Assembly: GCF_028389875.1 (NCBI RefSeq)
Contig: NC_084663.1
Location: 95,159,190 to 95,223,189 of the forward strand
Direction: 5' to 3'
DNA from: Rhea pennata
Lineage: Eukaryota; Chordata; Aves; Rheiformes; Rheidae
DNA length: 64,000 nt
Both the position numbers and the translations under genes were made by a program. This document shows, one piece after another, positions 172 to 34,694 of this stretch (the stretch's first letter is position 1; each line of letters starts with the position of its first letter). The notes below the pieces were generated by a model that had not been told where the DNA came from, made no database searches, and was given only the letters and a program-made list of their open reading frames with translations.

Positions 172-265
172 CTTCATTTGTTTGACATAAATGTTTCTGG
201 GAAGATCCAGTTCAAAGAGTCTGAGACTCTGAGTCCAGGGAGTGCTTCCTCTGTGTTTGATACTC
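172..265 (+). pseudogene. NIT2: NIT2 exon: FDI...LSPG block
   Basis: The acceptor is the cactacag ending at 171 and the donor is a weak GTGGGT. It encodes 31 codons plus one base, reading [15 protein letters not shown] then ESETLSPG and ending in FDT. This aligns with the human segment between the catalytic Lys and Cys, with about 21 of 31 residues the same by eye, and it includes a Pro-to-Ser change in the DVPG turn. No stop lies in this exon. Confidence 0.82.
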
Positions 266-1202: not shown

Positions 1203-1277
1203 CATACTGTACAGTGGGCCTGGGCATCTGCTATGATATCAGATTTGCTGAGCTGGCTTAAGTCTGTGGACAGAAAG
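1203..1277 (+). pseudogene. NIT2: NIT2 catalytic-cysteine exon with in-frame TAA
   Basis: The acceptor is gagaacag and the donor is GTGAGA. The frame set by the previous exon (C|CA = Pro) reads PYCTVGLGICYDIRFAELA and then meets TAA at 1259-1261. The codons after it (GTC TGT GGA CAG AAA G) still align with the human continuation IYAQRG, so the TAA replaces a CAA Gln codon by one transition and is not a terminal codon. Skipping this exon would keep frame (75 bp) but would remove the nucleophile. Confidence 0.85.
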
Positions 1278-1737: not shown

Positions 1738-1816
1738 GTTACCAGCTGTTGATATATCCAGGGGCTTTTAATCTAACAACAGGACCAGCTCATTGGGAGC
1801 TACTGCAAAGGGGATG
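1738..1816 (+). pseudogene. NIT2: NIT2 exon: [18 protein letters not shown]
   Basis: The acceptor is aacaaag and the donor is GTAAGG. The exon reads [19 protein letters not shown] then ELLQRG, and ends with TG in phase 2. The human protein has Cys where the first Tyr stands. The final TG joins the A at 2523 to give TGA where the family has Arg, as expected from CpG decay of a CGA codon. Confidence 0.85.
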
Positions 1817-2522
1817 GTAAGGACTGAGTTACCTGCTTATACCCTTGTTCCATAGGGGGTTTTAGCATATAGAACGGAATTCTTGTATTTTAACCCATGT
1901 TATGCAGAGTAGGGAGTGCTGCAAAGTCACCCTGCTGTCACCCCGCTGTTCCTCAGCCTTGCTCTGCTTGACACCAAATCTTGCTGTCAAGGAGGAAAGC
2001 AGGAGATGCTTATCCTTCACTCCTGTCAGCTCCTCTGCCCACCGCTGTACCCTTACAAGGACCTTTTCCCTGTACTGCTCTGAGCACCATTCACACACCC
2101 ACTTCTAGAGAGAAGAGGCAGGAGCCAGCCGTAACCAGTTAAGAACTGCTCTAACTGAAGATAGAAACAGACCCCAAGACTCCTGGATGTAGGATTCTTT
2201 TCTTAAGCCGTAAATTAAGTCAAAGGTCTTCATTTGGTCAGCTTCAGTCACCTTCGCTACATACTGAACAAATGGGTAATTCATGCTAACCCTAACTCTG
2301 GGGGCAGGTAGTAGAGACTTCTCTTTCCAAGCTTTCTGATTTTTCTCTGACCTTTGTCATTAATGGTTTTGGCTACTCTGCAGAAGGAGGCATTGCTTAC
2401 TCCTTCAGCATGACTTCTTTCTCTTCTGCTTAGTTAAGTGGTGGTATAGGGAAAAAAAAAAAAAAAAGAGAGAAGAAAAGTCCACTGATGTTTCCTTCTC
2501 CCCTATGTTTCTGTAAACACAG

Positions 2523-2621
2523 AGCTGTTGATAATCAAGTCTATGTAGCTACTGCATCTCCTGCTAGAGATGAAAAAGCATCCGACGTTGCTTGGGGACA
2601 CAGCACTGTAGTAAATCCGTG
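2523..2621 (+). pseudogene. NIT2: NIT2 exon: [16 protein letters not shown]
   Basis: The acceptor is aaacacag and the donor is GTGAGT. After the first base, which completes the TGA, the frame is open and reads [20 protein letters not shown], then [13 protein letters not shown]. The family has Tyr before VAWGHST and this copy has Asp. The exon is otherwise the best-preserved block of the gene. Confidence 0.85.
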
Positions 2622-3849: not shown

Positions 3850-3905
3850 GGGTGAAGTCATAGCCAAAGCTGGCACCGAAGAAGCAGGTCTGTACGCAGA
3901 TATGG
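3850..3905 (+). pseudogene. NIT2: NIT2 exon: GEVIAKAGTEE
   Basis: The acceptor is gttgtgcag and the donor is GTAAGC. The exon completes Trp, reads GEVIAKAGTEEAGLYADM and leaves one base for the next exon. It aligns with the human stretch ending IVYSDI, and no stop occurs. Confidence 0.8.
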
Positions 3906-4275: not shown

Positions 4276-4364
4276 ATCTGAAGAAGCTTGCAGAAATCTG
4301 TCAACAAATCCCTGTTTTGAGCCAGAAGCGTAATGATCTCTATGGCATAGAGATGAAAAAATGA
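4276..4364 (+). pseudogene. NIT2: NIT2 last coding exon and natural stop
   Basis: The acceptor is ccctgtag. The exon reads [20 protein letters not shown] then DLYGIEMKK and stops at TGA 4362-4364, the family's usual end give or take one residue. Human has Arg in AEIRQQ; here it is Cys (TGT 4299-4301), a change again explained by CpG decay. A 3' UTR with two poly(A) signals follows. Confidence 0.85.
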
Positions 4365-4467: not shown

Positions 4468-4481
4468 AATAAAAAAATAAA
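4468..4481 (+). terminator. NIT2 poly(A) signals
   Basis: Two AATAAA hexamers (4468-4473 and 4476-4481) lie about 105 bases downstream of the NIT2 stop codon, the expected place for a short 3' UTR. A long T-run begins about 75 bases further on. The cleavage site was not located. Confidence 0.5.
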
Positions 4482-11441: not shown

Positions 11442-11595
11442 TTACAGTGTTGGTGGTTTCAACCCGTACTTCTTTGCAACTTCTGTCTGGGCATAGGCAG
11501 CATCACAGAGTGAGTAGAGGTGGGCCATCTCCATTTCAGATTTGGCAAGGTTGATAGCTTTGTTAAACATTTCAATGGCTTTATCCAGATTGCCT
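11442..11595 (-). CDS. TOMM70: TOMM70 exon 12 (residues 538-588) and stop
   Basis: The acceptor is tatttcag. The exon reads GNLDKAIEMFNKAINLAKSE, then MEMAHLYSLCDAAYAQTEVA, then KKYGLKPPTL, and stops with TAA at 11444-11442. The ending is the conserved C-terminus of vertebrate TOM70. Confidence 0.97.
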
Positions 11596-14500
11596 CTGAA
11601 ATAAACCAAGACGCAGTCCAGTTAAGAACAGCTAAGCAACTTTTGCATCTCTACACCATCTTTTCCCCACCACAGGGCTCGCAGTATCCACTAATAAAAG
11701 TTTAAAAGGACTTTAGGAGGAACCACCATAAGAACTTGGGATGATGACGCACAAACAGAGGGGCAACCTGAGTACCAATCCAAGCAACAAGGATAGTATT
11801 AAACAGCATTCCCCTTCAGAGCCCCACAGGTGGTAGGTAGTGTGGAACAGAATGTTCACCATGGGTCAGCAAGCAGATTACACAGACAGCGCCAGGACAT
11901 CACAGGGAAGTCTTCAATTTTTCAACTAATTGAGACAATTTGTGCACTTAGGAGAAAAACTTCTACAGTAAAGACAAAAGCTCAAATTATTTTGACATAA
12001 AATGTTTGCAAAGTCTTTTCCCTGCAGAAGTTTAGTTGTCTGCTACTTTGATGGTTAAACATGTAAAGAAGCCTCTTGTTATAATCTCAGCTACAACAAA
12101 CTTTTGCATGATTTTAACATAACACACTGTTATAGAAAAGTGCATTAGTTTCTCCTTTTTACCATAGGAACTTGCAAAATGCAGAGCTGTTGGGTGGTAG
12201 TCAGGGTTAAGAGCCTAGATTAGCATTCTTAGCACAAATGGTTTGGGCACAGCAAGATACGTCTTAAAGGACTACATTAGACACACAGGAAGTCTAGTAA
12301 TGATTAATAAAAAGTTATTTTATATGTATGAGGGATGTATTTTTGCATACACAGACTGCATCTTGTCCAATAACTACAAAACTGGTAAACAGAGGAACCT
12401 GCCAGACCATAAAGTAGAAATACGTCATCGAGAAAGACAGACCTTCCCTAAGAGTTACAGAAAAAAAAAAAATCAGGACTTTTGTTAAGATCTGACCTCC
12501 CACTGTACTGGAGAGAAGATCTCAAGAAAGGCTTAAGGCTCATGGAGAAATCTAAAAGACTGCTATAATTTCAAAAGTAATTTAGACTCTACATCTTAAC
12601 ATTACCTTTGCACTTCAATCGTTCCCATGGTTTCATATGCAAAGTCACATTTGTTATCAATTTCAATGGCCTTGCTTATGAGTTCTAAGCCTTTGTCTAA
12701 ATCTTGCTTCCACTGAAGCTGAAGCAAACTAAAAGACAAGGAGAAAAATTAGAACAAACTTCATGTATCCTTATAACCCAGCCCATGCAAGCTTAAAATA
12801 TTCTGTACAAAGCTTAATTGAAGTCTTAATGTAGGGTAGACAGTAGTTTCACAACTTTTAAAGGAAGGTATATGTGAAATTCACTTTCAATAAACTATGT
12901 TACCAGTCTAATGCCTCCAAAGAAAGGTAAATTCCTCTCAAGAAGACTGGTTACAAGACGCTTTTGTGAAAGAGAAAACTTCAGCACAAAGCTCAAATCT
13001 AGACAGAGCTAAATTAAGAGTCAGATATATTTGAGGCAGATACTCAATTAGGAATGAGAACTAATGAAACTTCAGTGAAACTTCATTCTTATTTACAGTT
13101 TAGTCAAAAGTTGTAGAAATACATTTAACAGCATTAAGCTGTTTTCACAAAGTTATTCTTCCTGGCTGAAATTTTAAAAATTAACATTCAGTTATGCTTG
13201 ATTCACCCTGGTATGCTGCCAATGGCCCTTGACTGAAAGAACTGTTATATTAACACATACCCTTTATGAACATATGTAGTGGCATTGTCTGGCTCAAGGT
13301 CTATACATTTATCATACATTTCATCAGCCTTGCCAAACTGCTGTTGATCAGTTAGTGCCTGCATCAGAACAAAAACCCATACATCAATATACAACCAAAA
13401 TATACACTTCGTGTCAGGCTAATTCTAGTTAAAACCATATTGATATTATGAGATCAGATTTCTCTCTCCTATCACAGAGCACAGCAGGACAAGTACACAA
13501 GTTACTAGAATTTATTTTCAAAATTGATGCTTTTTTTTTTAGAAAAAAAAAGTGGCTAGCCTTCAAGTGCAAAGATTATTATCACAGTGTTATTTGTAAT
13601 GGGGGATCCACAAGCAACATATGTTGAATGTACCACAAAAAAAAAAATCATTCTACAAATCTGTATGTGCAAGTTTCAATTTCTTCCTTTTTCAAGCTTA
13701 CTTCTTCACCTCTCTTATCTTTTGAAATTATACAAATCCTCAAAGGAAATGCATCCATACTGGCTACCCACTTAAAATCAGAGCCCCTAGTATTTAGTAC
13801 TAGAACCAGCAGCACATTTTATTAGAGAAGAAACGACATTCTCTGTTACAAGTGTGCCTTACACACCGGTATAAAATCTGTTTATCCAGTGTATGTCATT
13901 TGTAGCAGAACAAGACTGTTATCCTATTTCCACCCATTCAACTCGCAGATAACCTGGACAATTCCTACAGTTCAAGTAAGATATCACACACATGCACAAA
14001 TTCAAGGGAAAGGGTACTCCATGCCACTCTCTCCTAACAATCACCCCTGCTCCTCATCCCTTATAAACCACTCCACTTCCCACTAGTTCTTTCTCTGCTT
14101 CCCCTACCCCAGAACACCCATACCCATTATTTAAGGCAGCTTATCAAAGGATGTGTATTATTCTAGTACTTATTTTCAAAGATTTTCAAATAAGATTCAA
14201 AGGAATGATTGTTATCCAAGTTAAAAGGCCCATGAGAACACAGCACTTCAAGAGAGAGAAAAATGTACCTGAGCATAAAGTGCATAGCCTTCAGCACACT
14301 TTGGAAATTTTTTTATGACATCTTCAAAGCCTTTCATGGCTACCTGCACAGGCAAAGGATTATTTCCTGTGTATGCTTGGCGATACTATTAAAGAGGGAG
14401 AAAAAAAAAAGTTTCATCAGATCCACACACATCCTTAAGAAATATGTGCATGACAACTGCTTTACAAGTTCTAGAAGGTAATATTCCTGTACACTCTATC

Positions 14501-17500
14501 AAATTTGTTTTTAAAGGAACCTACCATACTTCAGTTTATGGTAGGGAAACGATAAGGCCAGGTAGTTGCCAACAGTATTCCCCCTTTTCAATGCCCAGAA
14601 TGCCTCTTTTTTCACAGCATGCACAGCTGTCCGCAAAAGATTCCTGCACACAGGGCACTGTACTAGGTTGAAATAGTTTGTTTCCTCTTTCTTGATGATG
14701 TCTCTGTGTTTTTCACACCATTCAAACTGATTGAAGTAAAGCTTTTTAATATAATTCAAAGCAAAGTTGTGCATTCTTCTACCATGAAACATAAAAGACC
14801 ACTCACTGTCTGAATAATGAACATTGAAAAACAGAAGTGGTAAACCCTTACTCAAACTGAAGAACATGTTGCATTAGTTCTTCACCTTATTATATATAAA
14901 AAAAAGTTAATTGCACTACTTTTCAATTAATTTCAAAGAAAAATTGAGAAACAAAACATGCTTTCAAGAACCTCTTTAAAGAAAGAGCACCCAGACAAAC
15001 ACATCACTTACCAGAGCAAAACATTTCTGTGCTTGAGCCAAGGCAGAATCAGGTCGCAATCGGATACATTCATCAAAGTCTTCCACAGCCTCTTCAACTT
15101 GGTCAAGCAGGATTTTCAACTAACCAGAACGAAAAAGAATCCTATTTCTGTATTTAATCTGTGGTTCACACATGTAAGTGATACTTCAATTAGCAGTTAA
15201 ATCAGTTAAAGTAGTCTCCAGTTCACATTTAGAACTATCTAGAGACTTTCAAAACCTGTAACTAAAACTCATTGACATACCAGAGCCACCAGTGAAACTT
15301 TGGCTTCAGATACAAAAAGAAAATGTCCACAGGAAGGGATTGCGAATGTTTGCATTTTAGGTCGTTGCATCTCCATTACTGCTTTAGAAGAGATTCTAAA
15401 CACTATGGCCAGTTTCCATAACTTTGCTGTGTTTTCAAATTACTTTGCCTCACTATAGTTAGTGTGAACTACATGGAATTTAAAACATTTTTGCTTTCAA
15501 ACTTGCATTTCATCATTTTTTCCTGATATTGCAGTCCTCAACAGGAGTAAAACTTACTTTGTCATTCTCTTACTTTATTGACGAGTTATTTTAAAAATGC
15601 CAATTTTCAAACTGCAGAAGAGTTTCAGCCCCTTCAAACATCAAACAACACCATTTTTATCTCTGAGCGCTAAGGAGATCTAACAAAGTCCAGGAGAGAG
15701 GCACTTGATCTTTGGAAGTCTTCCTTACCACAACAATTTAGCATATCTGTATAAGGCAACGTTTCCTTTTTCTTCTAGCATCTATTATTACAATTCCAAG
15801 TTAGAAATTCATGTTTTTCTAATGCAAACTGTATAAAGTGTGTTTGATATATATTGATCTTTACTTTCTTTTAGTATATATTGAAATATTAAAATATTAG
15901 GACAAAAATCACTGTTTTTTTTTTTTTTTTTACTTGTCCTCGATGATGGTAAACATCTGCATTCTGAGGATCAATATCAGCAGCCATATTAAAGTCTTGC
16001 GTGGACAACACAGGTTGCTGCTGCTGCATATACATACTTCCTCGTTTGATCAGAGCATTGGCTCGGAGCTATAAAAAAAAAATGTTCAAATAAACATTAA
16101 GTATTCTAACATTTGCCCAGATTTAAGACTTGGTTATGATTACAGTATTTTTTTTTTTATTATTTAATTAGTTTCTCCCACTAACAGATTTCATTCATTC
16201 TAAGCAGGAAAATAATTCACATCGAGTCTAAACCAATCAATACAAATGAATCCCTCGTTTAATTAGAAGTAAGTCACTGTATTTTCAGTGAATTTGCATC
16301 CCTAGGGAACCTTTTCAGAAGATACATTCCCTATGCTTACAAATACATCAGCATTTTTAGAAGCAGTTCAATATGCAAGTACAATTAATGTTCTTCTTAT
16401 TTATGAATTAGATTTTCCAGCTCTTATAAACCTCTAATTAATTCCACTTCCCCAGTTCTTTAGTTTCTGCAGCTTAGCACAGCTGTCTCAGAAATACTGA
16501 CAATACGATCCTCCAGGAATAAAACAACGTAACAGCGAAAGAAAATAGAACGCTTCCATTAATGGCCTGAAAAGCTGGAAAATGAAGTTCTGAACTTCAC
16601 TGCAAGTCTATCCTCTAATTTTTATGTTTTCCCAACACAAACTACAATCCAGCTGTGACAGATTCTTACCTTCACATTTGCATTTTCCATACTGATAACC
16701 TGATCTAGGTCTGGTTTGGCAGCATTCGCATTGCCAATAAGTAAATAGAAGGTAGCTCGCAGGAGTAAAGCTTCAGCCATATATTTTCCTTTTGCTTCAA
16801 TTTCTTTTGTGCTCTCACTGATAATTTTGTCATAGTTCTCTTCTTCCATATATTGTTTTGCTCTCAAATAGCCAGAGCTGAAAGTGATGCAAGAACAGCT
16901 GTATATACATAAGCATTCACTGAACACTCCAATTTCAGGTCAGACCCCCTTTTTAAAATCATAACAAATACTAACCTTTTTCTAGATAAAGTTGCCACAC
17001 TAGCATTATAAGTAGAGTTACAAATATTCCAGGATGGAGTCGTCACAGATTCAAAACATTTTAGACCAAAATGCCCAAATTACATTTGAAAGAAAACAAA
17101 GATTGTTTCCACCTCAACTTGAGCTTCATTTATCTCTTGAATTTTTTTCCTGTTAAGGACAGCTATAATTTCTGATTTAAAACAGAAAGGCTGGCAGGGT
17201 ATTCCAGGTCAAAAATGAAACATAAAAGTCAGCAATATGCATTTTACATAGGAAAGAAGATTTCACAGCAAAAATTAAAATAAGTACTGCCTTGTTCTCA
17301 ACTAAGTGTCCTGGATTCAATCAATCTACCTGCAGATCAGGTCCTTTCATCTTGCTTAAATAAAAACAAACAAACAAACAAAAAAAACAACAACAACAAA
17401 AAAACCCTCAAGCTTTTCTAAACTTTCTCAGAACAAACTTCTCATGTAGGTGCAATTTGATTCTAAAAAGATCCTTTCAGCCTCAGTTACTGTAGTTCAG

Positions 17501-18693
17501 AGTTTTCATTAATACAGGCCTTTTTCTGAGCTTGTATTTTCCCTTCCAATACAAAGGCTAATTTGCTCTCTTCCTTGAAAACTCTCTTTTAATATAAAAC
17601 ATCCCTTTTTCCAGAAACACCTTTCAGCTTTCTTCCTATCCTCTCATCTCCTAAGCTTTGCTATGGTGCTGTAAATAAATATTCAGTGCATTTTCCTGAT
17701 CTCATTGTCTTCCTCTACTTAACGCATCAAAGCCATTTACAGTTTGGAACTAGCCAGTCAGCTTTCACAAGTTTAATTTTTTAACATTGATCTTATTTCA
17801 TTGGTTAACTTTATCACCATGGGAATTCCTATGCCAAGCATTATAAAATAACAAGAAGTTACACTGAGCAAAACATCAGAACCACTGAAAACTTAATTCC
17901 AGTACCTAAAAATTCCCAACTGTACACTCACTTTTCTTTTACTTCAGAAGCTTCTCCCTCCTTATCCTTATCTTCATCTGACTTCTCACCCTTGAGCAAA
18001 GGTTGGGAGATTATATCATCTGTGAAGGAGCTGAAGTAGGATTTAATGAACTGCGGTGAGGGCATCAGAGGCTCACGATTCTGAAACACAGAGAAATGTA
18101 CTTTTAAGTTATTAGATAGTAAGACCAGATGGTAAATGAGGAAGGGGATAAAGACAAGGATGATAAACAAATTCACTCAGGAAAGAAAAAAAAATTATGA
18201 CTTGCTACTGATAATCTCACTCTCTGATAATTCAGTATTTTTGATTTGATAGTTTGTCATTCAGAAATTATTTAAGCTTCAGATTAGAAGTTTAGTACCC
18301 ACCATCAGAGGGAATGAGAAGGTATTGAAGAGAGAAGGAAGGAGACAGGATCATTCTGCATGTGTGGACAGAAATGAGGACTCCTATGATTAATAATTGG
18401 GTAAATGTACTAAAGTGATATGTGTACATACATGTTGCCTGAAAAAGCAAGCTGGTACCTTTAAGCATGGACTTGCATATACTACCTATGAATTGGACCC
18501 TGACTTGCATTCAAGTAGATTCTGAATAGCAATTTGACCTTTTCTCCAATTTGTCCATGAGAAGCTGCTGTCTGACATTACAATGAAGACTAATGAGGCA
18601 ATATCCTAATTCTACCTGTTGCTTGGCCCAGATACCACATATTTTACTTTAAATCTGAGAAGAAACACCCCTTACGTGCAAAAGCCTTTGTAT

Positions 18694-18734
<41 letters not shown>

Positions 18735-21700
18735 TGTTCAAAAAGAACACTGTGCACAAGATTTACAATTCAATCTTTCCTGTAAAAAAAAAAGTCTGAA
18801 CTCACTCTTCTGAATTCATCTATTAAGTTCCACCATAATAATGCCTATTCAAAGAACACTCTATGATGCTGCCACCATCACACTAGAAGCACAATTCACA
18901 GTTTTGTTACCTTGACTCTCCACAATTATGTGGAATTTATAGGAAGGAAATTCAGAATCTCAAAACCAATGTGGGTAAGTACTTCAGGCATTTTCACAAA
19001 TATCATGTGAGATTATTTTGATGCCTCTCCTAACTTTTTTGTAGATCTATACAGTCACTTAGAACTACAGCTGCTACCTACTCCTATACTTCTATAGCTC
19101 TCATTGCTGCAATTTACAGACTTTAATGCAAAGAAATCTATGAGTTTCCAAGTTGAAAAGTACAAGCATGAACAGCTATTTAGAGGGATGGAACAGAAGC
19201 AGTCTGTGACTGAATGTCAAACTAATCCATCAACATGAAGGCTTATTTCTCAAGATAGAATCAGGAAGTCTGATTGCAAACAAAAAGGTCAGACTTTACA
19301 ATGCATCTTTTTTCTTGTGTACTTGAAAAAAAAAAAAAAAGAAAATCACACACAAACATCCTTATTTCTTCACTTTTTAAAACCCAGGAATTCTTCCATT
19401 AACTTACATAGAATTTCTCTTTATATATTAAAAATAACCTTGGGAAAAAAGTCCTCAACTTTCCTTCGCATTTTAAGTCACTCACTACATACGCAACCAA
19501 AGTTGTTATGACATTTTTGATGACCTCTTATAACCCTTTCTGTCAACATATATCATAACTAAGTCAGTCAAATTACATTCTGTAATTAATTCAGCTAACA
19601 TTCAGCTGCTGTAAACTACATCCCTATTGCTGTTCTAACACTGATACTTATCCTGTTTCCACTATGTTACAATTCCCCAAAAGTCCTAAGACATCATGCA
19701 AACTAAGACAGCATGCATCCTGAATGTAGCAATAAATTTGATTAATTTATTACACAACACAAAGCCTAAGGGTACACAATCATTTTACTCAGATCTGTAA
19801 AAAGATTTTAGAAATAGGCCTCTCTTCCTAACGAGGTTTCAGAAAGTCTAGCATATGACCTAACAAAAAACATCGTAAGTAAAATAGTAGCTTTGCACTA
19901 AACTGTTGTTGATTCTTACGATCACCAGCTGAAGACAGTGACTTGCCTATAACAATTGAAAAAAATGACAACTATGTTTCAACAATCACCTAAGCAGAAT
20001 CAGAATTTGCCCTCAGTATCCTACCTTGTATTTCTCTTTGGCCTTTTCTTTTCCAAGGAGTTTAAGGACTTTATCAGCTAATAACATACTTTGCTGGTTT
20101 TGAAAGGCTTCTAAAATGCAGACTGCAGTGACATCTAGGGAACAACACAGAAAAGTGAAGTTAAAAATAACCTGTGCTAGTTACTAAAGTACAAAATGCA
20201 TCACTAATACAACTCGTCGCTGTCAAACTAATACACACCCCCGTTCATGGATGAAAGCCTCCATTTCCAGTTGCTGTATTTGCCACATTTTACAAAACAC
20301 AAAATTTACACTCAAAGTAATCTCCTTTCGATAAGAGGATTTTAAATCTACAAACAACCTTAAACAACTAAGGAAGTTTCATACCTCTAACAGGGGCTTT
20401 CAACATTTTGTAATTTTGAAGACAGTAATTACATTCAAATTATGTTTACATTAAAAAAATGCTAACACAGCTTCTCTTCTGGGACTGGTCTTAATTTTCT
20501 ACTTTTAAAATTCAAATTCAGTCTGATCACATCTTGCTCCTTTCTCAATTTGAAAAATCTTTTCCTACTATATTACAAAATGTTCTGCACACCTCTGTGC
20601 CTTTGGGAAGGAGTAAGTTAAAAGGAAATTCCCTGCTGACTCATTTAAAGTGCCAGCCCACATCATATCAGTTTCATTCGCAAATAGAGACTCTGCACAT
20701 GTGAACCCACTGTTGCCGGAATAATGTTTTGCAGTACTAAATGAGCCCTTTTGGCACATTACCGTTACTTCTCTTAAGTCCTTAAATTTTCCCGAGTAGT
20801 GTAACCCATTAACTTTCTCTATTTAATTTCTATATAAAACCCTGTCCCATTCACAAAAATATATTAAAGAGGAAAAGTCTTAGAAAAAAGCTTACCAGAA
20901 GCCTAAAATATCATTCCCACAAAGTCATTCTGTAAGGTTATTAACTATCAGGGTTTGGATTTGAAATTCAAACAGTGTATTGTAATGAAAAGCAAGTGTT
21001 CCACCTCAAACTTTCACTGTAGTTTCTGTAACCCTATACTGCTACAGAGGCTTTTATGTGATTATTTCCATCAAAACTCCCCATAACTCTGGCACAGTCA
21101 GGAAGTACAGAGGAACTCCTGGGAAAAAACACTACAGCCAGAAGCAGCATGCAAGATAGAGCCTACTCGTACTCTATTATACTATACTATGTGCCTGGTA
21201 CACATGCTTTGCCCAACACAGGCAGCTACAAGCCACTGCCCAGACGCAGGTGAGAGAGCAGTATCTTCACAGATCATACTGCCAGGGAGTACCAGATTTT
21301 TGCTTTGTTTTGCTTTCCTCTATTACATGAATGTACCCACTTCCTGATATTCTACTGGCCACACACGGTTGGTAATATCAGGTAATATTAGAAAACTTAT
21401 GTAGTTCAGAGAAAGTAGACAATTTTCAAGCATATCAACAAACTGCAAGCTAAAAATGAAGTGCAGGTTGAAAACAATTGCTACAAGCATTAATACTACT
21501 AGAATGATCAAAAAATTACATTTACAAACTATCATGCTTTTGCAGAAACCCCTGATCTTTCCTGTGGCTTTTTGTCATGTCAGCTTATCACAATTACAGA
21601 AGGTCTAGATTTGTTACAGGACTCCAAAAGTGCAGCTGTTCTGCAACAAGTGCTTGGTGTACTCCACAAGTATTCTACAGATTCTTCTGAAGTCATGGAG

Positions 21701-24700
21701 CAAAATTGCAAGGGACTCGATTCAATGCCCCAAGCAATTCCTTCTAGTACCTATCCTCCTACATGGCAGAAAGGCAACTTACCATTGGAGAGAGGCGAAA
21801 AAAACAGCAGCAAGACAGAGCACACAGATTTTCCTCATTGTAATCATCTAATTCAGCAAATCTAGTTCTTAACTGTTACACATAATAAAACTAATTTAGT
21901 TGCCTTAAGAGTTAGATTCACCAGCTACTAGAACACCATTTTGTTTTCTTTCCTGCTTGGATAATAAGCACTGATACAACTAAAAATTTAATTTGCCTTT
22001 TAATCCTGTTTCAGTAGAAATAATTTCACTTGATGAAAATTAAGTATTTTCAAATAGTGACACTTAGTTCAGTGGTACCTTTAGACAACACATCTGTTAT
22101 CTAATTCTCCTTAATTTTGATGGCTTCTCAGTCATATCTTCCTGACAGTTTGCAAGAATCTGATAAACTAGGTTCTGCCAAATATACAATGTTAATATAT
22201 AAAAAAGTATCTGTTCCAAATATCCTGTTAGGCATCAGAAAGAAATAATATTGAAGCTGTTTTTGCTTTAATACCTACCAAATGAATTCAAAAGACTGAC
22301 ATAATTTTGTTTCTAAAAGCACCTTCTCCACCTGCAGAAACACCTTGGTTCCTAGAGCAATACTATTTCTCTACAAAGGATTGTGAAGGAAGTTTGTTAT
22401 TGCATGGAACTAGAATGACTGTTGTCTGAGCCTGGTAGGTGAATTCTGCTTTAAAAATGTAGGGAGTTTCCTGAAAACAGGATATCTTAAATGGTTACAG
22501 TAAGATCAATTCCCAGCAACTGCTTCAGATCTAAACTGAAAAACGGAAAAAAGGTTTCTTCTTAGAATAAAATAGAACATACTTGTGGTAGTTATGAACA
22601 TTTTAAAATATATAATTGTGTATTACTAAAGCTACAGAAAGAAAACACAAAACAATCCTGTAAGTTTTAGTGTCTCCATAGTGCCCAAGCTGCTTATTCC
22701 ACTTCAAGTACACATACCAAGAGACACTCACCTTCTAAACATTCCTTCTTATTGTCCAGCTTCTCATGAGCCTTTGCACGTCTGAAGAGAGCTTTTACGT
22801 ATTTAGGGTTAAGCTCAACAGCCTTTGTACAATCTTGTGCCACTTCTGCCCATTTTTGCTGTGGGTAGAAAAACAGCATGATGAAGGACATCCTACTCAG
22901 AAAGATGTATCGTATTAGGTCTCTGCTACCAACACTAGGGTCATGCCCACCTAACAGAAGCTGCAGTTCCCAGAGTTATGGTTCTACTTGCTCACTTCTA
23001 TTTCTGCAAGTTGCTCAGTAAAAAACTGCCAGCCACCACTGGAAGCCACCCACAGCAGAAGAGCCACAAAATGGAAACAAATTCTTACCCCCCAAAAAAT
23101 ATATATATAGTTTGTACAAAGTTGATGCAGACACCTGCAGGAGGTAATGATGGGACTGAAAGACTGGCACACAATAGATGGAAGAAATAAGATGAAAACA
23201 TAATAAAAACCAACATACAAGATTAATCAAGTGCTAAAATACATGTTACTTTAATTTACTATTGTTATCTTAGTTTACTACACTACATCAATTCAAAGGG
23301 ATGATATATGAATATGTAGGAATAGAGTTGGTTTAGGCTATTAAAAAATAAAAATATTAAAAATATCAAAAATAATTAAATATAAAAATAGGCTTTTCTA
23401 ATAATTGGAAAAGAGGAACCACATACAGTTCTTAGACATTTATTATTCATAAATCAGTATTACAAGTAATATGTGTTTAGACAAGAACAGCATTTTAGCC
23501 CTCCTCAACTTTCAAGGTTAGGTTCCTCTAAGCATCCAGTCTCTCACTTGACACTTCAGACCATGAAAAGTCATTTTTCCCCATTCTTTCACACAGCTCT
23601 CCAATTCAACCTCAGAAGCCAGCCTGTTGATACCATAATAAAAAACAGTAATCCACTTCTAAAGCAAATATCAAGTATATATTGCTAACAACTAAACGTT
23701 ACTTCCACCTACGCAAAATTTTTAGTCTGGGCTTTTGTAGGTTGTATGTGGCTTTTTATTAGCTTTTGAAGTAGTGTATCACCAAAATATTTAACTTTCA
23801 TCTAACAGTTACAAAGCAACACACTAGAAAATAAAAGCAAAACTAACAGGTATACAAGAAGGCTGCTCTAGAGGATAAGAAATTAAAATCTTACCTTACA
23901 AGAAAAGGCCTAGAAAGACACTAAAAAATTACATAAGATAGACTGAGATGAGTTAACAGAAAATAATTTTAAATGTAGGTGGACAAGTAGGATGAGCTGG
24001 TGAAAAAAATACAGCTGCAAGCAATGGCATCCCGCTTTAAAGGTAGTACATATTACCACCTGGGAATCTTCAGTGGACAAAAATGTAAAAACACGTAATT
24101 TGCAATAAACTTAATCATATGTTTATCCTAAAAAGTTACAATTTCTTACCAGTTGTTCATAGGCAGCAGCTCTGTTCTGATAGAAGGTAGAAAGATCAAG
24201 ATTTTTCTCAGGAGGGCACAAGCTGATAGCCTCAGTATAACACTGAATAGCTTGCTCATATTTTCCTGCTTTAAAGTATTTGTTTCCTTTGTTCTTTGCT
24301 GCTTGAGCTCTATCAAGAGGGCTCTGAAAAACAAAAGTGATCAGTCAGTTCAAATAAGAAAAGCTTCACAGCAAGCAGAAGATGCACATAAGGGCTAATC
24401 TTCAAAGATATAAAATGGATTTGAGTACTAAACTCTAGCCTGGACTTCTGAAATCTCCCTCCTTACAATTTTTGGAAAAACACAACAGATTCTTTTTTGA
24501 AAGTATATAAGACAGCAGAGCAGCTTTTAAACTGATTCAGCACAATGGTATCAAACAGTGCAGTCAATTCTCTTTAGAAAGCTAGACAGGTTTTAATGTT
24601 ACAAGTGGTTTATCAGAAGAACCAGAGACTAGCATGTGAAAACAACAAAGCCTTCAAAACAGTTCAAATAGGAAGTTTCCACCTAAAGTGCATATAGCCT

Positions 24701-27700
24701 GTAAGACCAGAGCTGACTCAGCATAATACGAACAATAAGAGGAAAATACTCTGTGAAAAGACCTACTGAACAAGATGACTAAAACCTGCATGGGAAAGCA
24801 AACACATTTTGCCTTCCATACACTAGACAAATTATTAACTCTTTTACAACTTCATACAACCTCAGGCTGATAAAAAGTACTGGACTGCCACAGACAGCCA
24901 ACAGAGGATGGAAAGTTTTACTATCTGGCCTTGCTAACCAGACCTTAAGGCTTGGCCTTGCCTGCTGACCATCTGCATTTCTGGAGAAACCAGCATGCAT
25001 GCTCAACCTCTAAATTTACACAACAGTTATCAAATACTGTAGTTTATATGGAATTAGATATAAAAAGACCCTCTTCAAAGAGCTATGACTCACATTCAGT
25101 AAATACACAGCTGCAGAAGATACTAAACATTCCTCTTCTGGAAGGTCATGTCACTGAAGAAAATACAGAATTATCTGCCATGCCTTAGCTGTTCCTCTTT
25201 CACAGTCCAACCTCAGTGATCACATAGGCAGTTCCCAGCTAATGTGCCAGACAATGAAGTGAACAGAGGTATACGCATATATGCCTTTCTTCCAATCTCT
25301 CTGAGGAGTCGAAGAGCAAAAAACAGTTAGCTGCAGGATTCACTAGCTTTCATCTGTTGATTCACACACACCAAAAAGATCATCTAGGATTTGCTGGCAG
25401 TTGTAAATGCTGCCCTGTGAACATATTTCTGTCTCCTCTCTTCCCTCATCTACTGCTAGCACCACTAACTATACTCGTATTGCTGTAAGAAAAACCTTGA
25501 AGCATCTTTTCATTTCATCAGTCTTTTTCCATGCACATCTGCTCAGTTTCACACCAGTCTGATCATTTTTTGCAACAAAATGACTTTTTAAAACTTAAAA
25601 CCTAGAGGCAAGGCCAGTAGCTGCAGCTCCTCATTTATGGCTTTATGGCATTGAATTATGGCATGAATGAATCAGATGATGGGTGCCAGCTTTAGTTCCT
25701 GCATAAAAATAAGCATCCAAATAGAAGAGAAGTACCTTACCTGCACTGTCCTGAGGAGAGGCTTACCAATGAAGCCATATAAAGGAGAGAATTTCTTAAA
25801 TATCCTTACTACCAAAAAAAGTCTTCTCTGAGCTCACCAGTCATTCAGTCTATCAGAAACCAATCACTACCTTGTGACATTCATAGAGCAAAATGATCTG
25901 CATCATTTGTTAGATTTTTGTTTCTAACAATTTAAGTTCAAATTAATTAAAGGTCATTGTGCACAGTATATGAAGAGAGATGATGCCAACTCAGTGAACA
26001 CACAAACGAGAATTGCAGGGCAAATATTTTTACTGAGAGCCATGTAGCTGTATATCTGATAAGCTGTTACTTTAAAATTCAACCCAAGTCCGAAAGGAAA
26101 ATTATATTTACTTTAAGTATGTTCTAAATGTGGTTCCCAGTACAACTCTTACTGTTCTCTTAACTAATACATACAGTGGACAGAAATTAAATTACACAAA
26201 AATTAGCTTGGATTTTTCCTGTGGCATATCTACAGCAAATCACAATAGAAATTTCTTTGTGATTAGTTTACAAAATTCAGTGGTCCTCTAAGTTACTTCC
26301 TACTGAAAAGAAAGAACACAGCATGATATGCAAGCCACATCCTACATTCAGACCTTTACTCCCATTATCAAAACTCTAAGTCTGCTAAGATTTAAGACTA
26401 CATTATAGATAGAGGGAAAAAAAAAAATCTATGCTGAGCATATGTTTACATTTGTTTATTACTTTACAATCATGGTCAGTGTCTGTAGCCTAACTACTCC
26501 AATACCTGTTTCAGGCTGGCCAAACTGTCTGTTCCTATCCTATGCAGTTTGATAGCCATGCACTGTCGTCCCACAGTAAAAACACGACTCATCTGAGGAC
26601 TACGGGATAATATCCAAATGCAATAGCTGCTCCAGTGTAAGGGGTGGGATAAGAATCATCAGTGGTAGCAAGGAGTTTGTAATTCTAGGGCTGTCACTGG
26701 TGCTCTTCCTGCAACTTGGAAAGCATAAGCTTCAAAGATGATCCTAACTGCATGCAACAGCAACCAAAGATATTTAGAGAGCACAAGGCATAACACCACA
26801 GGAAAACCCACCAAAATTAGTAACTCTGTTATCACAGCAAGCTTTGAATAATAGTAACAAGGCCGCAGACCAGACAAAGAACTAAAAGGAAATTAATTAT
26901 CAAATAGATGCTCATTCAGCAATTACCCTCCATCCCATGCATTGGATGATGTAAGAAATTCACAGGTGGGAGGATTAGAGAACAGTATGTTGTCATTTAA
27001 TCAAGTCCACAGTAATGTCCACAAAAGAAGAAAATCAATTTTTCTTCTGCTAGTTTAAACTAGACTCCTAACTTCTGAGTCTTTTTCTCTGCAGCTTTAG
27101 GTACACTATTCTGGTGTTCCTCTGTCTGCATACAATGTAACATTTCTGAAAGGCAGTCCTTTTAAAAATGAAGGTTCCTAAGCTTCTGCATAACAAATAA
27201 ACCCGCTTTTGTAAGGGCAATATGGGGAATGAAAGAATGTTCAGCATTGCATACCCATGCAAAAGAGAACCCCACATAGACTGCATATAAATTGCGGATT
27301 AAAATAACTATAAAACATTTTATCTGTGGCTTCAGGTCCGAATGCTTAGAAAACACAGTGGTAAGTTTTAAATTCAACTCTCTTTTCTAAATAATGATGA
27401 GATTAATCTTCTTAGCAACCAGAAAACTCTTTTACTACAGGAAAAAAAAACATACCAGAAAATAACGGATCAATTAATGTGCCTGGTGTAGAAAAATCAC
27501 TGATGCAGTCATGGAATAAAAGTTGCTCAGACGTGCTCCAGAAAAAAAGGACATAGCTTTTATTTTACTTTTAAAACTTAAAAAGTTGTTAGTTATAAAT
27601 ATTGTTAAAAAAGCATAAGAAATTCTGTTTCTAAATCACATATTCAAGTTAAATAACTGTAGCACAACCTGCTGAAGCCAGAAGTATTAGAAAGCTAAAT

Positions 27701-30700
27701 TCATGCCTGTTTTCTTGGGGGGGGAGGGGGGAAGTGCGTGCATGTGGGTTTTTTTTTTTAAGGTATTAAAGAATTAATGTTACATTATTTTAGCATTCTT
27801 ATTTATGCTGTTATGAAAAGCCTGCAGTATATAATTCTTAATCTGTGATCAAATTTTGAAAGTGTTAAGTCTTAGATTTATCCCTGACCTATTTTCTGCA
27901 TTTTTTGAGCTTCTTCCCCTGTCAGCCCTGTTGCTAAAGGAAGATGTACACAAATAAACTGACTCATTATCCAAAAAAAGTTCACATACTTTACACAGAG
28001 CTAATCAAACAAAAGATCCTTTTCTTCCATTCCCTTGCAGCTGTAATAATTTTAGACATTATTTACCACCAGATTGAAAACACTTTCAGACAAAAATGGC
28101 CTTTAAAAATAAAAATGCAACAGTCTCCACATCTTCCAGTTTCATGGCTTCAGCTCACCTGATCCATTGCAATTGTGGTTACTACAGTAACAATCAACAT
28201 GGCATGCTAGATGTATTTTGGCTCTACAGCAAAGGACTTTATAAAGCAAGAATTCCTCTCACACAGTTTATCATCTCTTAGTCAAAGAATCAGAGTAACA
28301 AGCAAGGCAGTTCAATAAAAATGAAGTTCATAATCAATTGTCTACAAAGGCAGTGCATACAAATATAGCACTGACTCAGGCCACAGCTGCTTCTGAACAC
28401 ATCAGCAAAAAAGGAAGGAAATTTTCTTGCTTCCCTTGCTTTGGATTAATTCTGACGAGTATAGACGAACAAGTACTAAAGAGTTTTCATTCAGCTGTAT
28501 GATGGCATTGCATTTACAGACTAGTTTTCTCTTCCATATTAAAGTGCAAACTACAGCAAGTTTCTTATCCAAGGAGAAGTTTTAGTATGTTCCTTACAAG
28601 ATTTCTGTCTATTCCCAATCTAACAAGAAGAGAATTTTATTTCATTCTCACCGAAGATAACAGTGACAGGCTGCAACAACTAACCCATCCAAAGACAGAA
28701 GATGCACTTTCAGGACACTAAGATTCTAAGCTGCAACTTGCACTGTAGACACTAGGAATGCAGGAATTTCCATTGTATTTGCATCACAAAGCCAGGGATA
28801 GCACCCCCTACTCTGAAGCCAGTAGGGCTGAAAGAGCCTCCTATAAAAAGGTCTGCTTTCCACATTCACTTCCATAAGAGAGTCTGTGATCCCACTATAG
28901 CCATTTGAGATTAAACATTTGCACAAAAAACAAACAAACAAACAAACAAACAAACCCCACTTTTCCCTGTATTTTTATGCCCACATGTGGCATCGTTTTA
29001 AACTTTTTGTCAGAACCATATTCACGTTATCAAATTAAGAGCCTGATTCCTACAGATACAACTGTTTTTGTTATATTAAACCTGCTCAGAACCAGTAAGT
29101 ATTAAAAAATACCTATCATCATGATAATCTTTTGTGCTTTACAATTTCCACACATGCCAAGACTAAAGCAGTAGTGCAACTTTTTTAACGCTTCCTAGGG
29201 TATACAGTTTTTGAAAAACTTGGACTCAGTTGTGTACCCACCATGAATGTCTGACACAGTCATACCAAAACAAAATACGCTGTCTTCCATTACGGCTAAA
29301 AGCAGACAAGACAGTTCTCTGACATGCATGGCAGTTTACTCTGCTGTTTAGCACATGTTCATGACACTCAGTTCATGACACTCACCGTTTAGATGCCTCT
29401 ACAATATTCATGCTGCTAAATACTCAACAGGCTCCTTAGGGTAAGGATACATGTCTTTCTCATATCTTGAATGAGCTTTCCGAATTTGAATACAACTCGG
29501 AAGTTATCTGCAGTTACAGGAAAAAATAACATCTCAGTATTTAGATCGTTTTGCGCAACTGTTCACTATCAATTGTCAAAACCTAGAATTTAAGCCAAAG
29601 GACACTTGTGTTTTTGAGAAGCACTTTGTTATCTAAGTAACTAAACAAGCAAATTCTTGACTATCTGAAGATCAGACAGCACAAATAAAATTTTTAACTG
29701 TTACTTTAACCTCATTGGATCTACTGTCCTCATAAAACACTCAAAAACTGCATGTGAACAGCTGCCACTTAACAGCAATAGACTGCCAACTGCAAGAATA
29801 AAGCTCAGTAACCTCCAGCAATGCCAATATGTTTAAATCAGCAGCTTAGGACTCCCTTTCTATTTGAGGGACATTGTCATCACTGGCTGGCAGCAAATTC
29901 TTTGTTCTGCCAGCCATCTTCAAAGAACAGTGAATCACAACAGAAACATGAGCAGCAAGTTACACCATTTTCTTTTGACTAATAAGGATTTGCAAAACCC
30001 CTTGCCTGGCAGATGATATGCAATGGCACTACTGCTTCAGCCATCAATCTTAATTTGTCAGCTTGCAAAAGGTGCCTCGTACTGGACCTCTTTCTTCTTC
30101 TCCAAGTGACAGGACTAAGAGACCCTCTTGACCTGATCAGTCATCAATAAAAAAAAAAAGTAATGTTTTCTTCACTGCTACAGAATCCCTATACTTTATT
30201 TTGTACTAACATTGATCTCACCAGTGTTCTCTCAGACCTATACCGAATGATATTAACTGAGTGCAAATTGTTTTAAGATTCTCCTTAGCACTGAAACCAT
30301 TGAAAGAGGAAAACAGTTTTTCCACATGAACTTAAGATGCAAATTCACAGGGAAAACAAGGACATATTATGGTTATAAAAAAAAATAAGCTCAAATTTAC
30401 AGTAAAATTTATGTTTTCCAGTCACCTTCTTTTTAATGAATTTAAGTCACGCAGTCCTACTATGAATAAGTTGCACCTGAGCTGCCAAGGCTCTAACAAT
30501 TGTTCTATTGATATTACACACATTTAAGGGCTTTCTACACCTGTCCACTACAGCTGACATGAAGCATAGTACACCTGCAGTAGAGCAATAGATTTATTAG
30601 GCAAGAGGTGCATAACACAACAAGAATGACTTTTATAGATTTCAGTCAGATTAATTCATAATAAGAATTAACATCAGTGCATCTAGACAAAAAAGTGGTA

Positions 30701-33700
30701 ACTCCTTAAAAATAGTGATCTAATATTGCAGCCCTGAGATAAGCAACATTCAGCAAATTAATATAGATAATGGAAAAAAGCCATACTAGTTGGCTGTTGA
30801 TCCTGGTATGTGGCATCACACAAGTCAACAAGTGGCCACTTTCCCTCACCACTGCACTCAAGTGAGTATACCCAGCTCAGAGGAAAATGTCATGCAAAGA
30901 TAGTGGACTGCTGTAGACCAAGCTGCTTTGTCTGCATCACGCAAAGCTGCACTGTTGACTAAACAGTTCAAGAATCTCTGTTCAATGCTTCCTGATATGC
31001 TGAAAACCCAGCGTTAGCCTAGAAACCTGCTGAAATCAATCACAGGTGAGATTTGGACTACCAAACACTTGCTGAAAGGAATGATTTCAACTTAAGTGGG
31101 GGAAAAAAAAAGCAACCAAAACAGTTGCTTACTGACTAACACACATTTCCTCCTATCAGGCAAGGAGGGTATAAACATGCTAACAGGTTACCATGGAGTA
31201 AGTAAAAAACATGAATCAACTAGGTATCAATTTATTTTTGGTAACTACCAGATATAATAATCCCCCCACAATAAATGCAAAGCAGTTTACTACTTAAGCA
31301 TGTTTAAACTATGCCGGTATTCACCACAAAGTAAGAGGGCACATGAAAAGGAATTGCTGTTACTGAGTAGCTAAAATGCAACCCATCCAAACTCTGAAAA
31401 ATAATGACAAGTTCTATAATTAACAGATGCAGTGCAACTTCCTGACCTTTGAGGCCTCCCTAGCTACATTTTTACCATGAGTACTTAACTGGCACAAGAA
31501 TACCAGTTTACTGTACTGGTGAGGAGTTGTGCTTACAGGAAGGGCAGTCTGAGAAGTAGCTCAGCTTTTCCCAATATAGCACCTACGCTAAGGGCTTCTG
31601 CCAGTACAATGTCAGTGACAGATTGTACACTTGATCAGAGCAACTATGCCAGGAGATTCATCCAATGCAGATATAGCTTGGGAAAAACATGGTGTTTCAG
31701 CAATAAGTAAAACTAAAGTCTGAATTGCAGGCAGATAAGTAAAAGACGTCTGAATAAAGAACAAAGAAGGTTTTAGACTCTAGGAATTTTCTGTTTGTTC
31801 TTTGAAAATGTTATCTGGCTGTTTTATTATCAGGGAATAGAGCAAATGGATACAGAAGCTGGCTCAATGAAATATATACAAAGTCTCAGTTCTAATTTAA
31901 ATATACAATTAAAAGAGTAGTTACCACACACACACACACTGTTGGTAGCCCATTCATTGTTGACCTGTGTTTTCGAATAGACTTCCCACTTGCATTTAAA
32001 CTCAGCCGGTTTTCAAATACAAATTTAAAAAGTCGGTGATTCATTTTACAGCTAAACTCTCCAAACCACCCCCCCCCCCAAAAAAAACACATTAGAAAGG
32101 CAGACCAATACAAGGCAGGTAGTTAAGTATTAAGACACCTGGGAAGGTTGTATTTTGAATCAAAGGTCATAAGACACCAGTAATATCCGTAACTAATAGA
32201 ATGTATGTGAAAACATGAAGTCTACACAGCATAATCTTTTCGGATATGAGGAACTGGAACGCAATCCTCCCTACATACATAAAACAGCCAAGGAGTAGCT
32301 GCAGCCACTTTGATTTTCCTGCTGCAGCCATATTTTGTCTACTGTCATCTTATCAAGCAAATCTGGTCCTATTTGCTACACTTTTCTTAAACCCTATCTC
32401 CTACTTCTTTATAGCATGCAGTGATACTCTTCAAGGAACTCCAGATTATATCAGTCATCCATATACTTTTTGATAGGTGTATATAATCTATCAGTAATTC
32501 ATTTTGTGGAGCAGTCTGAAATACTCAGACATTCTGAATTCTTTAAATTAAGTGCAACATTGAAAGCTATTCCTGCTTCAAGCACAACTACAGAAAGGCT
32601 GCAAAATATCTTAAGATACATACTGTAATCCAAAACATGATCAGAAAATCCTGAGCTAACAAACTAACAGCAAAGTCTCTGCAATTACACAAAGGTCCAG
32701 ACGGTCCAGCTACTCCAACAGTAGCCTGCAACTCAGAGCTCGCAAGCAGCAAGCACACTGCCACAAAGGTGCCAAGCACTGCTTGTAGCCACAAGCCAAA
32801 GCTACCACAGTAAACAAAATTTGATTTTGTCCCTGGTGCTGTACTTGTTGTTGCTTTTGACACTGTTGCTTATGAGCTAACAACAAACAACTGCCACTTG
32901 ACTATCTGCCCCCAGGTCCAGCATGGGTTTTGCAGCTCACTGTACTACTAGCGATGCCTGAGGGTATCCATGATTCAGTAGCTGTGGAAATTCTGACCTC
33001 CTCATCCCTCCCATGTGTTCTTGCCACTGTTCGCCCACTCACTTGCATAACATTTATCTTCATCACTGAAACGATCAAGGTTAAAAACTGCCTTTTCCAA
33101 TCTCACCGTTACTCTTTTTTCCTCAAAATCATCTCAGAGAAGAAGTTTAAACTAAGCCTTTTCCCCTCACCATCCCCAGGTAAGAGCAATCCAGCTGGTA
33201 CACTGTCTATGACACGAGAGAGGGGAAAATGCAGGAGTATCTTTACAGGACTCTGTCACCAAAGCCAGCATATTTTAAAGTTAGCTCTACTATGCAAAAA
33301 CTAACTTCCAAAAAACACAAAGTTGCATGTATGACCTGCATATGGAGGGCAAGAGCAGTGGAAAACAGTTTCAGACAATAAAAATTAGAATACTGATTAT
33401 GTTCCTCATTCAATCAACTTGCTAAATCTAAAACTTTGAACACACTCATTAATTGTAACACCTCCTCAATACTACAATGTGCCTGCCAAAACACCTGTGG
33501 CAGCAGATGTGAAGAAAGTACATCTCGGAGATATTTCTTCCCATAATAGGCACAAAAGAGAATCATGGACCTGATTTTAACTCTGTTTTTCTGTATTTTC
33601 TTTCAATCTCTGTGTAGACATGTTTTATTCAAAATTTCTCTGGAAGTTTATTTGCAACAGGACAAATGCAAGTTCAAACAGCATACCTATTTAAGTAAAC

Positions 33701-34694
33701 TCTGCTCTGAGATCTCAGTCACTTTAGCTATATGGCCTTTGTATTTCCACGTAAAATGTTTCACTTGTTAAAAATTCTGACTACATTTTTTTCTACTCCG
33801 GCATATCCAGTATCTCAGACTAATACAGAACCAATCAAAATTTTTCTTTTTTAAATATTGATCTCAGAAGCAATTTTCTCATAGCTATTATGCTGCTCAG
33901 AAGAATAAACACATTCACTGAGCAACAGCCCCATTTACAGATTCGTGTCCTTCTAGATCTGCATAGCTCACCACAAGGCACTTACATTAATACAGTTTGC
34001 CTTCCAAGTGCCAGCATTGGGAAGAGAACAAATAAGCGTACTCTGAACAACTACCAGAAAGACTGAACAGCACTGAAGAAAAACCCCTTGAAAAATCAGC
34101 GCCTGAACAGCAGAATTCAGAAGCGACGAAGGCTGCCCTCATGCGAAGAGGCTGCCACCCCAGCGCACTCACTTCAGCGCCGCTCATGCCTTCAGAGGCG
34201 CCCCCAGGGCCAGCACGGGGGCTTCGGGAGCAGCCACGGGGAGGAAGCACTGAGCCAGCCCAGCGCTGCCTACCGCACACCAGGCGCCCCCGGCTCCGGC
34301 CGGCCCAAGGCAGCCCTGGGAGCGCAGGGGCGGATACGCCCGCTCCCAGCCCCCTTCCCCCGCCCTCCCAACGGCCGGGAGGAACGGCCGCGGGGCAGGG
34401 GCGGCGCCAACCGCCGCCGCGCGCGCTCACCGTCTCCTCGCGGCCGGGCCCGTCGGGCTGGCCGCTGCCGCAGGCGCCGGGACCCGGGCTCGCGCGGCCC
34501 TCGGGCGTCTTCCGCTCGCTAGCGCCCTTCCCGCCGCCGCGGGCCGCCCGCCGCCCCCACAGGTAGAGCGCGCCGGCGCCCAGCAGGATCGGCGCCCCCA
34601 GCACCAAGGCCAGCTGCCAGCGGGACAGCCCGGCACCGCCGGCACCGCCGCCGCCGCCGCCCGCCGCCGCCTCCACGGGCTTCGAGGCGGCCAT
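11442..34694 (-). CDS. TOMM70: TOMM70, mitochondrial import receptor subunit TOM70 (12 coding exons)
   Basis: TOM70 is an outer-mitochondrial-membrane receptor. It accepts hydrophobic precursors such as metabolite carriers from Hsp70/Hsp90 and passes them to the TOM40 pore. Twelve exons on the minus strand join in phase: 34694-34431, 24323-24150, 22858-22732, 20134-20025, 18080-17932, 16877-16670, 16068-15934, 15119-15012, 14385-14269, 13358-13261, 12728-12606 and 11595-11442. They give 588 residues (human 608), with no stop or frameshift. Residues 26-46 form the membrane anchor. Residues 47-88 are a basic, glycine-rich linker containing SERKTPEGRASP. TPR repeats follow, with the chaperone-clamp motif ALFRRAKAHEKL around 170-181 (Arg172 matches human Arg192). 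The C-terminus is KKYGLKPPTL. The start codon lies in the family motif MAASKPVEAA. The gene shares a CpG-island promoter with LNP1. Confidence 0.97.
12606..12728 (-). CDS. TOMM70: TOMM70 exon 11 (residues 497-537)
   Basis: The acceptor is gtcttttag and the donor AAG|GTAATG. It reads LLQLQWKQDLDKGLELISKA, then IEIDNKCDFAYETMGTIEVQ. The split Gly codon on the left and split Arg codon on the right both complete correctly with the neighbouring exons. Confidence 0.97.
13261..13358 (-). CDS. TOMM70: TOMM70 exon 10 (residues 465-496)
   Basis: The acceptor is ctgatgcag and the donor GG|GTATGT, phase 2. It reads ALTDQQQFGKADEMYDKCID, then LEPDNATTYVHK, one TPR unit. Confidence 0.97.
14269..14385 (-). 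CDS. TOMM70: TOMM70 exon 9 (residues 426-464)
   Basis: The acceptor is tttaatag and the donor CAG|GTACAT. It reads YRQAYTGNNPLPVQVAMKGF, then EDVIKKFPKCAEGYALYAQ. The loop NNPLPVQV differs from human NNSSQIQA but keeps length. Confidence 0.96.
15012..15119 (-). CDS. TOMM70: TOMM70 exon 8 (residues 390-425)
   Basis: The acceptor is ctggttag and the donor CTG|GTAAGT. It reads LKILLDQVEEAVEDFDECIR, then LRPDSALAQAQKCFAL, one TPR unit. Confidence 0.97.
15934..16068 (-). CDS. TOMM70: TOMM70 exon 7 (residues 345-389)
   Basis: The acceptor is ttttatag. The donor is an unusual CAA|GTAAAA that leads straight into a long A-run of the transcript. It contains LRANALIKRGSMYMQQQQPV and DIDPQNADVYHHRGQ, both TPR helices. 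The frame is intact. Confidence 0.95.
16670..16877 (-). CDS. TOMM70: TOMM70 exon 6 (residues 275-344)
   Basis: The acceptor is cactttcag and the donor AAG|GTAAGA. It contains SGYLRAKQYMEEENYDKIIS and ATFYLLIGNANAAKPDLDQV, two TPR units that begin the C-terminal substrate-binding core. Confidence 0.97.
17361..17405 (+). repeat. CAAA/CAA simple repeat
   Basis: An array of CAAA units passes into CAA units, flanked by A-runs, within TOMM70 intron 5. Confidence 0.9.
17932..18080 (-). CDS. TOMM70: TOMM70 exon 5 (residues 226-274, linker)
   Basis: The acceptor is gtgtttcag and the donor AA|GTGAGT, phase 2. It contains NREPLMPSPQFIKSYFSSFT, then DDIISQPLLKGEKSDEDKDK. This linker between clamp and core ends in the charged, probably disordered stretch typical of the family. 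Confidence 0.97.
18697..18732 (+). repeat. Poly(A) tract, about 36 bases
   Basis: An uninterrupted A-run in TOMM70 intron 4. In the sense of the gene it is a T-run. No retroposon body is recognisable beside it. Confidence 0.9.
20025..20134 (-). CDS. TOMM70: TOMM70 exon 4 (residues 189-225)
   Basis: The acceptor is gttccctag and the donor AAG|GTAGGA. It reads DVTAVCILEAFQNQQSMLLA, then DKVLKLLGKEKAKEKYK, the helix that closes the N-terminal clamp domain. Confidence 0.97.
22732..22858 (-). CDS. TOMM70: TOMM70 exon 3 (residues 147-188, clamp TPR)
   Basis: The acceptor is ctacccacag and the donor is GTGAGT, phase 0 to phase 1. It contains QDCTKAVELNPKYVKALFRR then AKAHEKLDNKKECLE. The first Arg of FRRAK is the residue that grips the EEVD tail of Hsp70/Hsp90 in the human protein. 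Confidence 0.97.
24150..24323 (-). CDS. TOMM70: TOMM70 exon 2 (residues 89-146, first TPR)
   Basis: The acceptor is tttttcag and the donor CTG|GTAAGA, phase 0 on both sides. It reads SPLDRAQAAKNKGNKYFKAG, then KYEQAIQCYTEAISLCP, and ends RAAAYEQL. This is TPR 1 of the chaperone clamp. Confidence 0.97.
28924..28955 (+). repeat. AAAC tetranucleotide microsatellite
   Basis: A run of AAAC units in TOMM70 intron 1. Confidence 0.9.
31925..31939 (+). repeat. Short CA dinucleotide repeat
   Basis: Seven to eight CA units in TOMM70 intron 1. Confidence 0.85.

Follow-up and report, generated by a model that had tools for sequence, protein, structure and literature searches.

Two premature stop codons in a syntenic NIT2 (omega-amidase) gene point to a probable young unitary pseudogene

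In one report (PMC12864753), the omega-amidase NIT2 is described as having the catalytic triad C153-K112-E43. According to the same report, human endothelial cells lacking NIT2 accumulate alpha-ketoglutaramate, and in these cells the glutaminase GLS1 contributes more alpha-ketoglutarate than NIT2. Mice without endothelial Nit2 showed impaired angiogenesis, the rise of alpha-ketoglutaramate in plasma being a trend (P 0.0506), and the methods section records that Nit2 ko/ko mice were generated (PMC12864753). The paper also names succinamate with hydroxylamine as an omega-amidase assay.

Inactivated vertebrate genes have been described in some birds, for example STK33 (PMC4509753), CNR2 in parrots (PMC9727682), and MOXD2 (PMC4830563); unlike these, the gene considered here encodes an enzyme of glutamine metabolism. 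A single-gene loss would be ordinary in kind, and the point of interest is the enzyme, NIT2. Among the matches listed in the open-licence literature, no title or abstract opening reported loss of NIT2 in birds.

The closest counterparts of the present gene are the mammalian NIT2 proteins (mouse, PDB 2w1v; human), with which it shares the same exon-by-exon alignment, the GLGICYD motif, and TOMM70 as the neighboring gene. It differs from them by stops at positions 163 and 195, by R255C, Y216D, C170Y, and M156I, and by other changes.

Identity and setting of the NIT2 locus

The window, i.e., the whole 64-kb stretch of DNA that was analysed, contains the 3' part of NIT2 at its left end. With the mouse and human NIT2 proteins as queries, six exons were identified (Table 1), which joined into 492 bases in a single frame, with no insertion or deletion relative to the human gene and with ag/gt sequences at all borders seen. 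Around the first stop, the joined protein reads GICYDIRFAELA*VCGQKGYQLL. Residues 1 to 112, including the codons for Glu43 and Lys112, lie beyond the window edge, whereas the Cys153 codon is present within it. The exon carrying the catalytic motif alone matched NIT2 at an E value of 2.6e-8 (tblastn, mouse fragment) or 8.8e-8 (second search); because of these values, and because the six exons join in frame, a chance match is not an issue. A mis-called exon or a wrong frame was ruled out, as all six exons share one frame with gt/ag borders.

Table 1. Features of the NIT2 locus and the neighboring TOMM70 gene, in window coordinates
Feature	Position	Strand	Evidence and remarks
NIT2 exon	172..265	+	Residue 113 to first base of split Pro144 codon; tblastn with the human protein, E 9e-9; borders ctacag / gtgggt
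NIT2 exon, catalytic Cys153 motif GLGICYD	1203..1277	+	Borders gaacag / gtgaga
Codon TGC of catalytic nucleophile Cys153, intact	1229..1231	+	Sequence
Premature stop 1 (TAA), position 163; human and mouse residue Gln	1259..1261	+	Sequence, alignment
NIT2 exon	1738..1816	+	tblastn E 1.8e-12; borders acaaag / gtaagg; final two bases TG open premature stop 2
Premature stop 2 at Arg195, split TG (1815-1816) / A (2523), intron between	1815..2523	+	Sequence
NIT2 exon, Y216D inside	2523..2621	+	tblastn E 4.8e-17; borders acacag / gtgagt
NIT2 exon GEVIAKAGTEEAGLYADM	3850..3905	+	tblastn E 0.007 alone; frame agrees with neighbors; borders gtgcag / gtaagc
Last NIT2 coding exon, natural stop TGA, R255C inside	4276..4364	+	tblastn E 1.2e-9; border ctgtag
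AATAAA, possible polyadenylation signal 3' of NIT2	4468..4473	+	Sequence; another at 4476
TOMM70, 12 exons, 589 codons including stop	11442..34694	-	Neighbor and control for base quality

The best PDB match of the locus was mouse NIT2 (2w1v, E 1.7e-67), followed by yeast YLR351C (5.9e-36) and NitFhit (1.5e-28), the structure of which we take to be that of a worm protein. A Pfam CN_hydrolase match was obtained at E 9.6e-25. NIT2 is arranged tail to tail with TOMM70, which is encoded on the opposite strand and followed by LNP1; we presume NIT2-TOMM70-LNP1 to be the gene order in human as well. By its closest similarity to vertebrate NIT2 and its synteny with TOMM70, the locus is the NIT2 (omega-amidase) orthologue by descent. 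A retrocopy or processed pseudogene was ruled out by the five gt/ag introns between the six exons and by the place beside TOMM70; because introns are present and LNP1 lies beyond TOMM70, this is the NIT2 locus itself.

Several further features of the window were recorded. Two plus-strand stretches, 38761-38901 and 46229-46384, matched human LNP1 at 49 and 50% identity, respectively, with no stop in the matched parts, and prolong the NIT2-TOMM70-LNP1 order. Downstream of the possible polyadenylation signals of NIT2, a run of 37 T (4557-4593) has a likely uncertain length in the assembly. A stretch resembling FSIP2 (fibrous sheath-interacting protein 2, PF15783) lies on the plus strand between NIT2 and TOMM70 (5846-6983) and was matched in two pieces (E 2.6e-18 and 4.8e-08). 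By eye, it appears to have an intron of its own (approximately 6128-6293, gtgagt to cttcag), and because of this apparent intron it may be a duplicated piece of a gene and not a retrocopy. One arm of a 245-base inverted repeat (6117-6361 / 7139-7383, 98% complementary, 777 bases between the arms) falls inside the FSIP2-like stretch; the repeat reflects either an inverted duplication of recent date or a fold-back in the assembly. The motif ATTCTATGATTCTATG, which we take to be a CR1-type 3' end motif linked to birds, occurs in one perfect copy (45624-45639), with 0.22 matches expected when up to 2 mismatches are allowed and with a match in 21 of 100 shuffles; at most, it hints that the DNA is avian. 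The window yielded no Rfam match at gathering scores and no match to TMEM45A with a human query.

Two nonsense codons in the NIT2 reading frame

In the catalytic exon the frame reads YCTVGLGICYDIRFAELA*VCGQKG, the TAA being aligned to Gln163 of mouse NIT2 (PDB 2w1v); Gln163 is also the human residue. Nine codons separate the codon for Cys153 from the TAA, and the codons past it keep aligning with the family, both in the remainder of the exon and in four further exons. A sequence-only reading of this DNA had reported an in-frame TAA shortly after the catalytic cysteine, in an exon retaining its splice borders and the GLGICYD motif and followed by codons still alignable with the family, and on each of these points it was borne out. 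Its further description of the lesion as one C-to-T change inside a real exon, replacing a Gln (CAA) of the family, held in part: the exon is a genuine NIT2 exon with a nonsense codon, but the gene contains two such codons, and Gln at this position characterizes mouse and human NIT2 rather than the wider family.

The wider family was represented by prokaryotic relatives fetched with the peptide patterns ICYDMRF and IVSLPECF, which retrieved at least 593 stretches and at least 570 relatives. The best 80 were kept and 79 of these were aligned; one (L038), whose match was longer than the others, was omitted. Since retrieval by motif biases the conservation of residues 152 to 158 among these relatives, M156I was not counted as evidence. 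At position 163, Arg was found in 71 of the 79 relatives (from the best 80 of at least 570) and Gln in none. Gln in human and mouse, the sole basis here, makes CAA the probable ancestral codon and a C-to-T mutation the probable change.

The second stop is formed by a codon divided by an intron. Its phase is fixed by the homology of both flanking exons, and because the frame of each is set by its own homology, the split codon is TGA. Arg195, the residue replaced, is Arg in human, in mouse, and in 78/79 prokaryotic relatives (from the best 80 of at least 570). An internal stop was present in none of the 79 aligned relatives from the same best 80. A working enzyme would require an uninterrupted frame across the nitrilase fold; the locus instead carries TAA at position 163 and TG/A at position 195.

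Disabling mutations in a syntenic, intron-bearing copy are one mark of a unitary pseudogene, and they are present here. We consider, with a probability of about 0.72, that this is the orthologous NIT2 (omega-amidase) locus of a vertebrate, probably a bird, which two nonsense mutations have turned fairly recently into a unitary pseudogene. Residue 162 would be the last one translated, and the protein would lack roughly 40% of its length, at the C-terminal end of the nitrilase fold. The transcript would be expected to undergo nonsense-mediated decay, because later exon junctions lie more than 90 bases downstream of each stop in the spliced order.

Alternatives to loss of the enzyme

The main rival to enzyme loss is a second, intact copy of NIT2. 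If a functional duplicate resided elsewhere in the genome, the syntenic ancestral copy would be the redundant, decaying one, and the slight decay observed would fit such redundancy. However, tblastn found no second NIT2 within the 64-kb window, the broken gene is the syntenic copy beside TOMM70, and there was no positive sign of a duplicate. We consider this explanation unlikely; the genome probably lacks a second copy.

The nearest alternative apart from a second copy is a segregating null allele, in which the stops would be confined to the haplotype of the sequenced individual and other members of the species would have an intact NIT2. The intact splice borders, the absence of insertions and deletions, and the well-kept C-terminal half suggest a very recent loss and hence speak for this possibility. 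Against it, two stops together with R255C and Y216D on one haplotype would be more than expected of a single recent null allele. A polymorphism of this kind appears rather improbable, and the disabled gene is presumably fixed in the species. Loss of NIT2 in the species, which the sequence-only reading had considered, is likely.

It is very unlikely that sequencing, polishing, or DNA damage caused C to be read as T at both stop codons. Assuming that CAA and CGA were ancestral, each stop would be a C-to-T change, the signature of deamination. The neighboring TOMM70, in contrast, has a reading frame that is open across all 12 exons and ends only at its natural stop. From human Leu111 onward, it is identical to human TOMM70 in 467 of 498 residues, and one of its exons was matched to PDB TOM70 chains. 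Because this gene is open over 589 codons of the same window, general base error is unlikely. Among codons that a single C-to-T change on one or the other strand would convert into a stop, 2/13 were stops in NIT2 and 0/47 in TOMM70 (Fisher p 0.044), which gives no sign of window-wide damage; the p value is a weak and marginal number, the NIT2 count includes both presumed ancestral codons, and the test was framed after the stops had been seen. Moreover, the window contains no N, and Y216D (a Tyr codon versus GAC) is an unusual change that is not C to T.

It is barely credible that skipped exons or read-through of the stops still allow the gene to make a useful product. Such a rescue could start from exon 1203-1277, with 75 nt, and exon 2523-2621, with 99 nt: both lengths are divisible by three, and dropping the two together leaves no stop before the natural one, but the product of this double skip would be without Cys153 and without 58 residues. 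All 16 combinations of skipping the four internal exons were examined in the sequence, and none united the Cys motif with the natural C terminus, by which rescue through exon skipping was ruled out. The exon with the motif is retained in 8 of the 16 forms, all eight of which end at the TAA. Only two forms are open to the natural end, the double skip and the one lacking all four internal exons, and both are without the Cys motif. The bases separating the Cys153 codon from the TAA include three GC dinucleotides but no GT to supply a new donor site, and read-through would have to bypass two different stops. A splice form circumventing the stop while keeping the catalytic cysteine, which the sequence-only reading had named as a refutation of its finding, is, as judged from sequence, closed by stop 2 and by this lack of a GT.

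Degree of decay and consequences for glutamine metabolism

Over 163 shared columns, the NIT2 of the window showed 34 differences from human, the two stops included, and 38 from mouse, compared with 13 between human and mouse; the visible protein is 79% identical to human NIT2. For 12 of the 34 differences, the state in the window occurred in 0/79 relatives (two of these are the stops, and one is M156I, which lies in the retrieval motif). For 4 of the 34, it was the human residue that occurred in 0/79 relatives, and two of these (163 and 170) are also among the 12. C170Y is therefore weaker evidence than it appears, as the Cys of human and mouse was found in 0/79 relatives. At F261L, T140V, S244A, and Q127K, more relatives share the residue of the window than share the human residue. 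Among relatives from the best 80 of at least 570, Arg255 was found in 77/79, as well as in human and mouse, and position 216 was Tyr in 46/79 and Asp in 0/79. R255C suggests relaxed constraint; given that the comparison is with human, mouse, and prokaryotes, this change and Y216D may or may not be new on this branch.

Departures from conserved columns depended on the threshold. In the 25 columns conserved at 95% or more, there were none in human or mouse and 3 in the window (the stop at R195, R255C, and M156I, the last being discounted). At 90% conservation (32 columns), human and mouse each departed at 1 and the window at 4. At 80% or more (44 columns), the numbers were 6, 5, and 8 for human, mouse, and window, respectively, so that the contrast is small. 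With transitions weighted 4, 3.6% of random changes create a stop, and two stops are expected after approximately 56 neutral changes in 489 bases. This exceeds what the few clearly damaging missense changes imply and suggests that the loss is younger or that chance contributed. The decay of NIT2 is visible yet slight, with no frameshift and no loss of a splice site.

The enzyme itself is old, because its relatives, at 33 to 53% identity, are spread over many bacteria and some archaea (best 80 of at least 570). In viral_contigs, where a relative might have represented stray host DNA, 15 stretches matched the patterns and none was a relative.

If the locus is a unitary pseudogene, as we favor, alpha-ketoglutaramate formed by glutamine transaminases would not be hydrolysed by NIT2, while alpha-ketoglutarate would still be supplied by glutaminase. 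A build-up of alpha-ketoglutaramate would be in line with the NIT2 knockouts in human cells and mouse endothelium described in PMC12864753, by analogy with which it is proposed here. These knockout data suggest how an animal could live without NIT2, at a possible cost. That a whole animal lineage is without NIT2, and hence without the omega-amidase step of the glutamine transaminase pathway, is a tentative proposition that we hold to be possible but somewhat doubtful. If true, these animals would be natural knockouts that tolerate or excrete alpha-ketoglutaramate or hydrolyse it with a different enzyme. Such an animal would reveal how far the glutamine transaminase-omega-amidase route can be dispensed with, and if it is replaced by another enzyme or by excretion.
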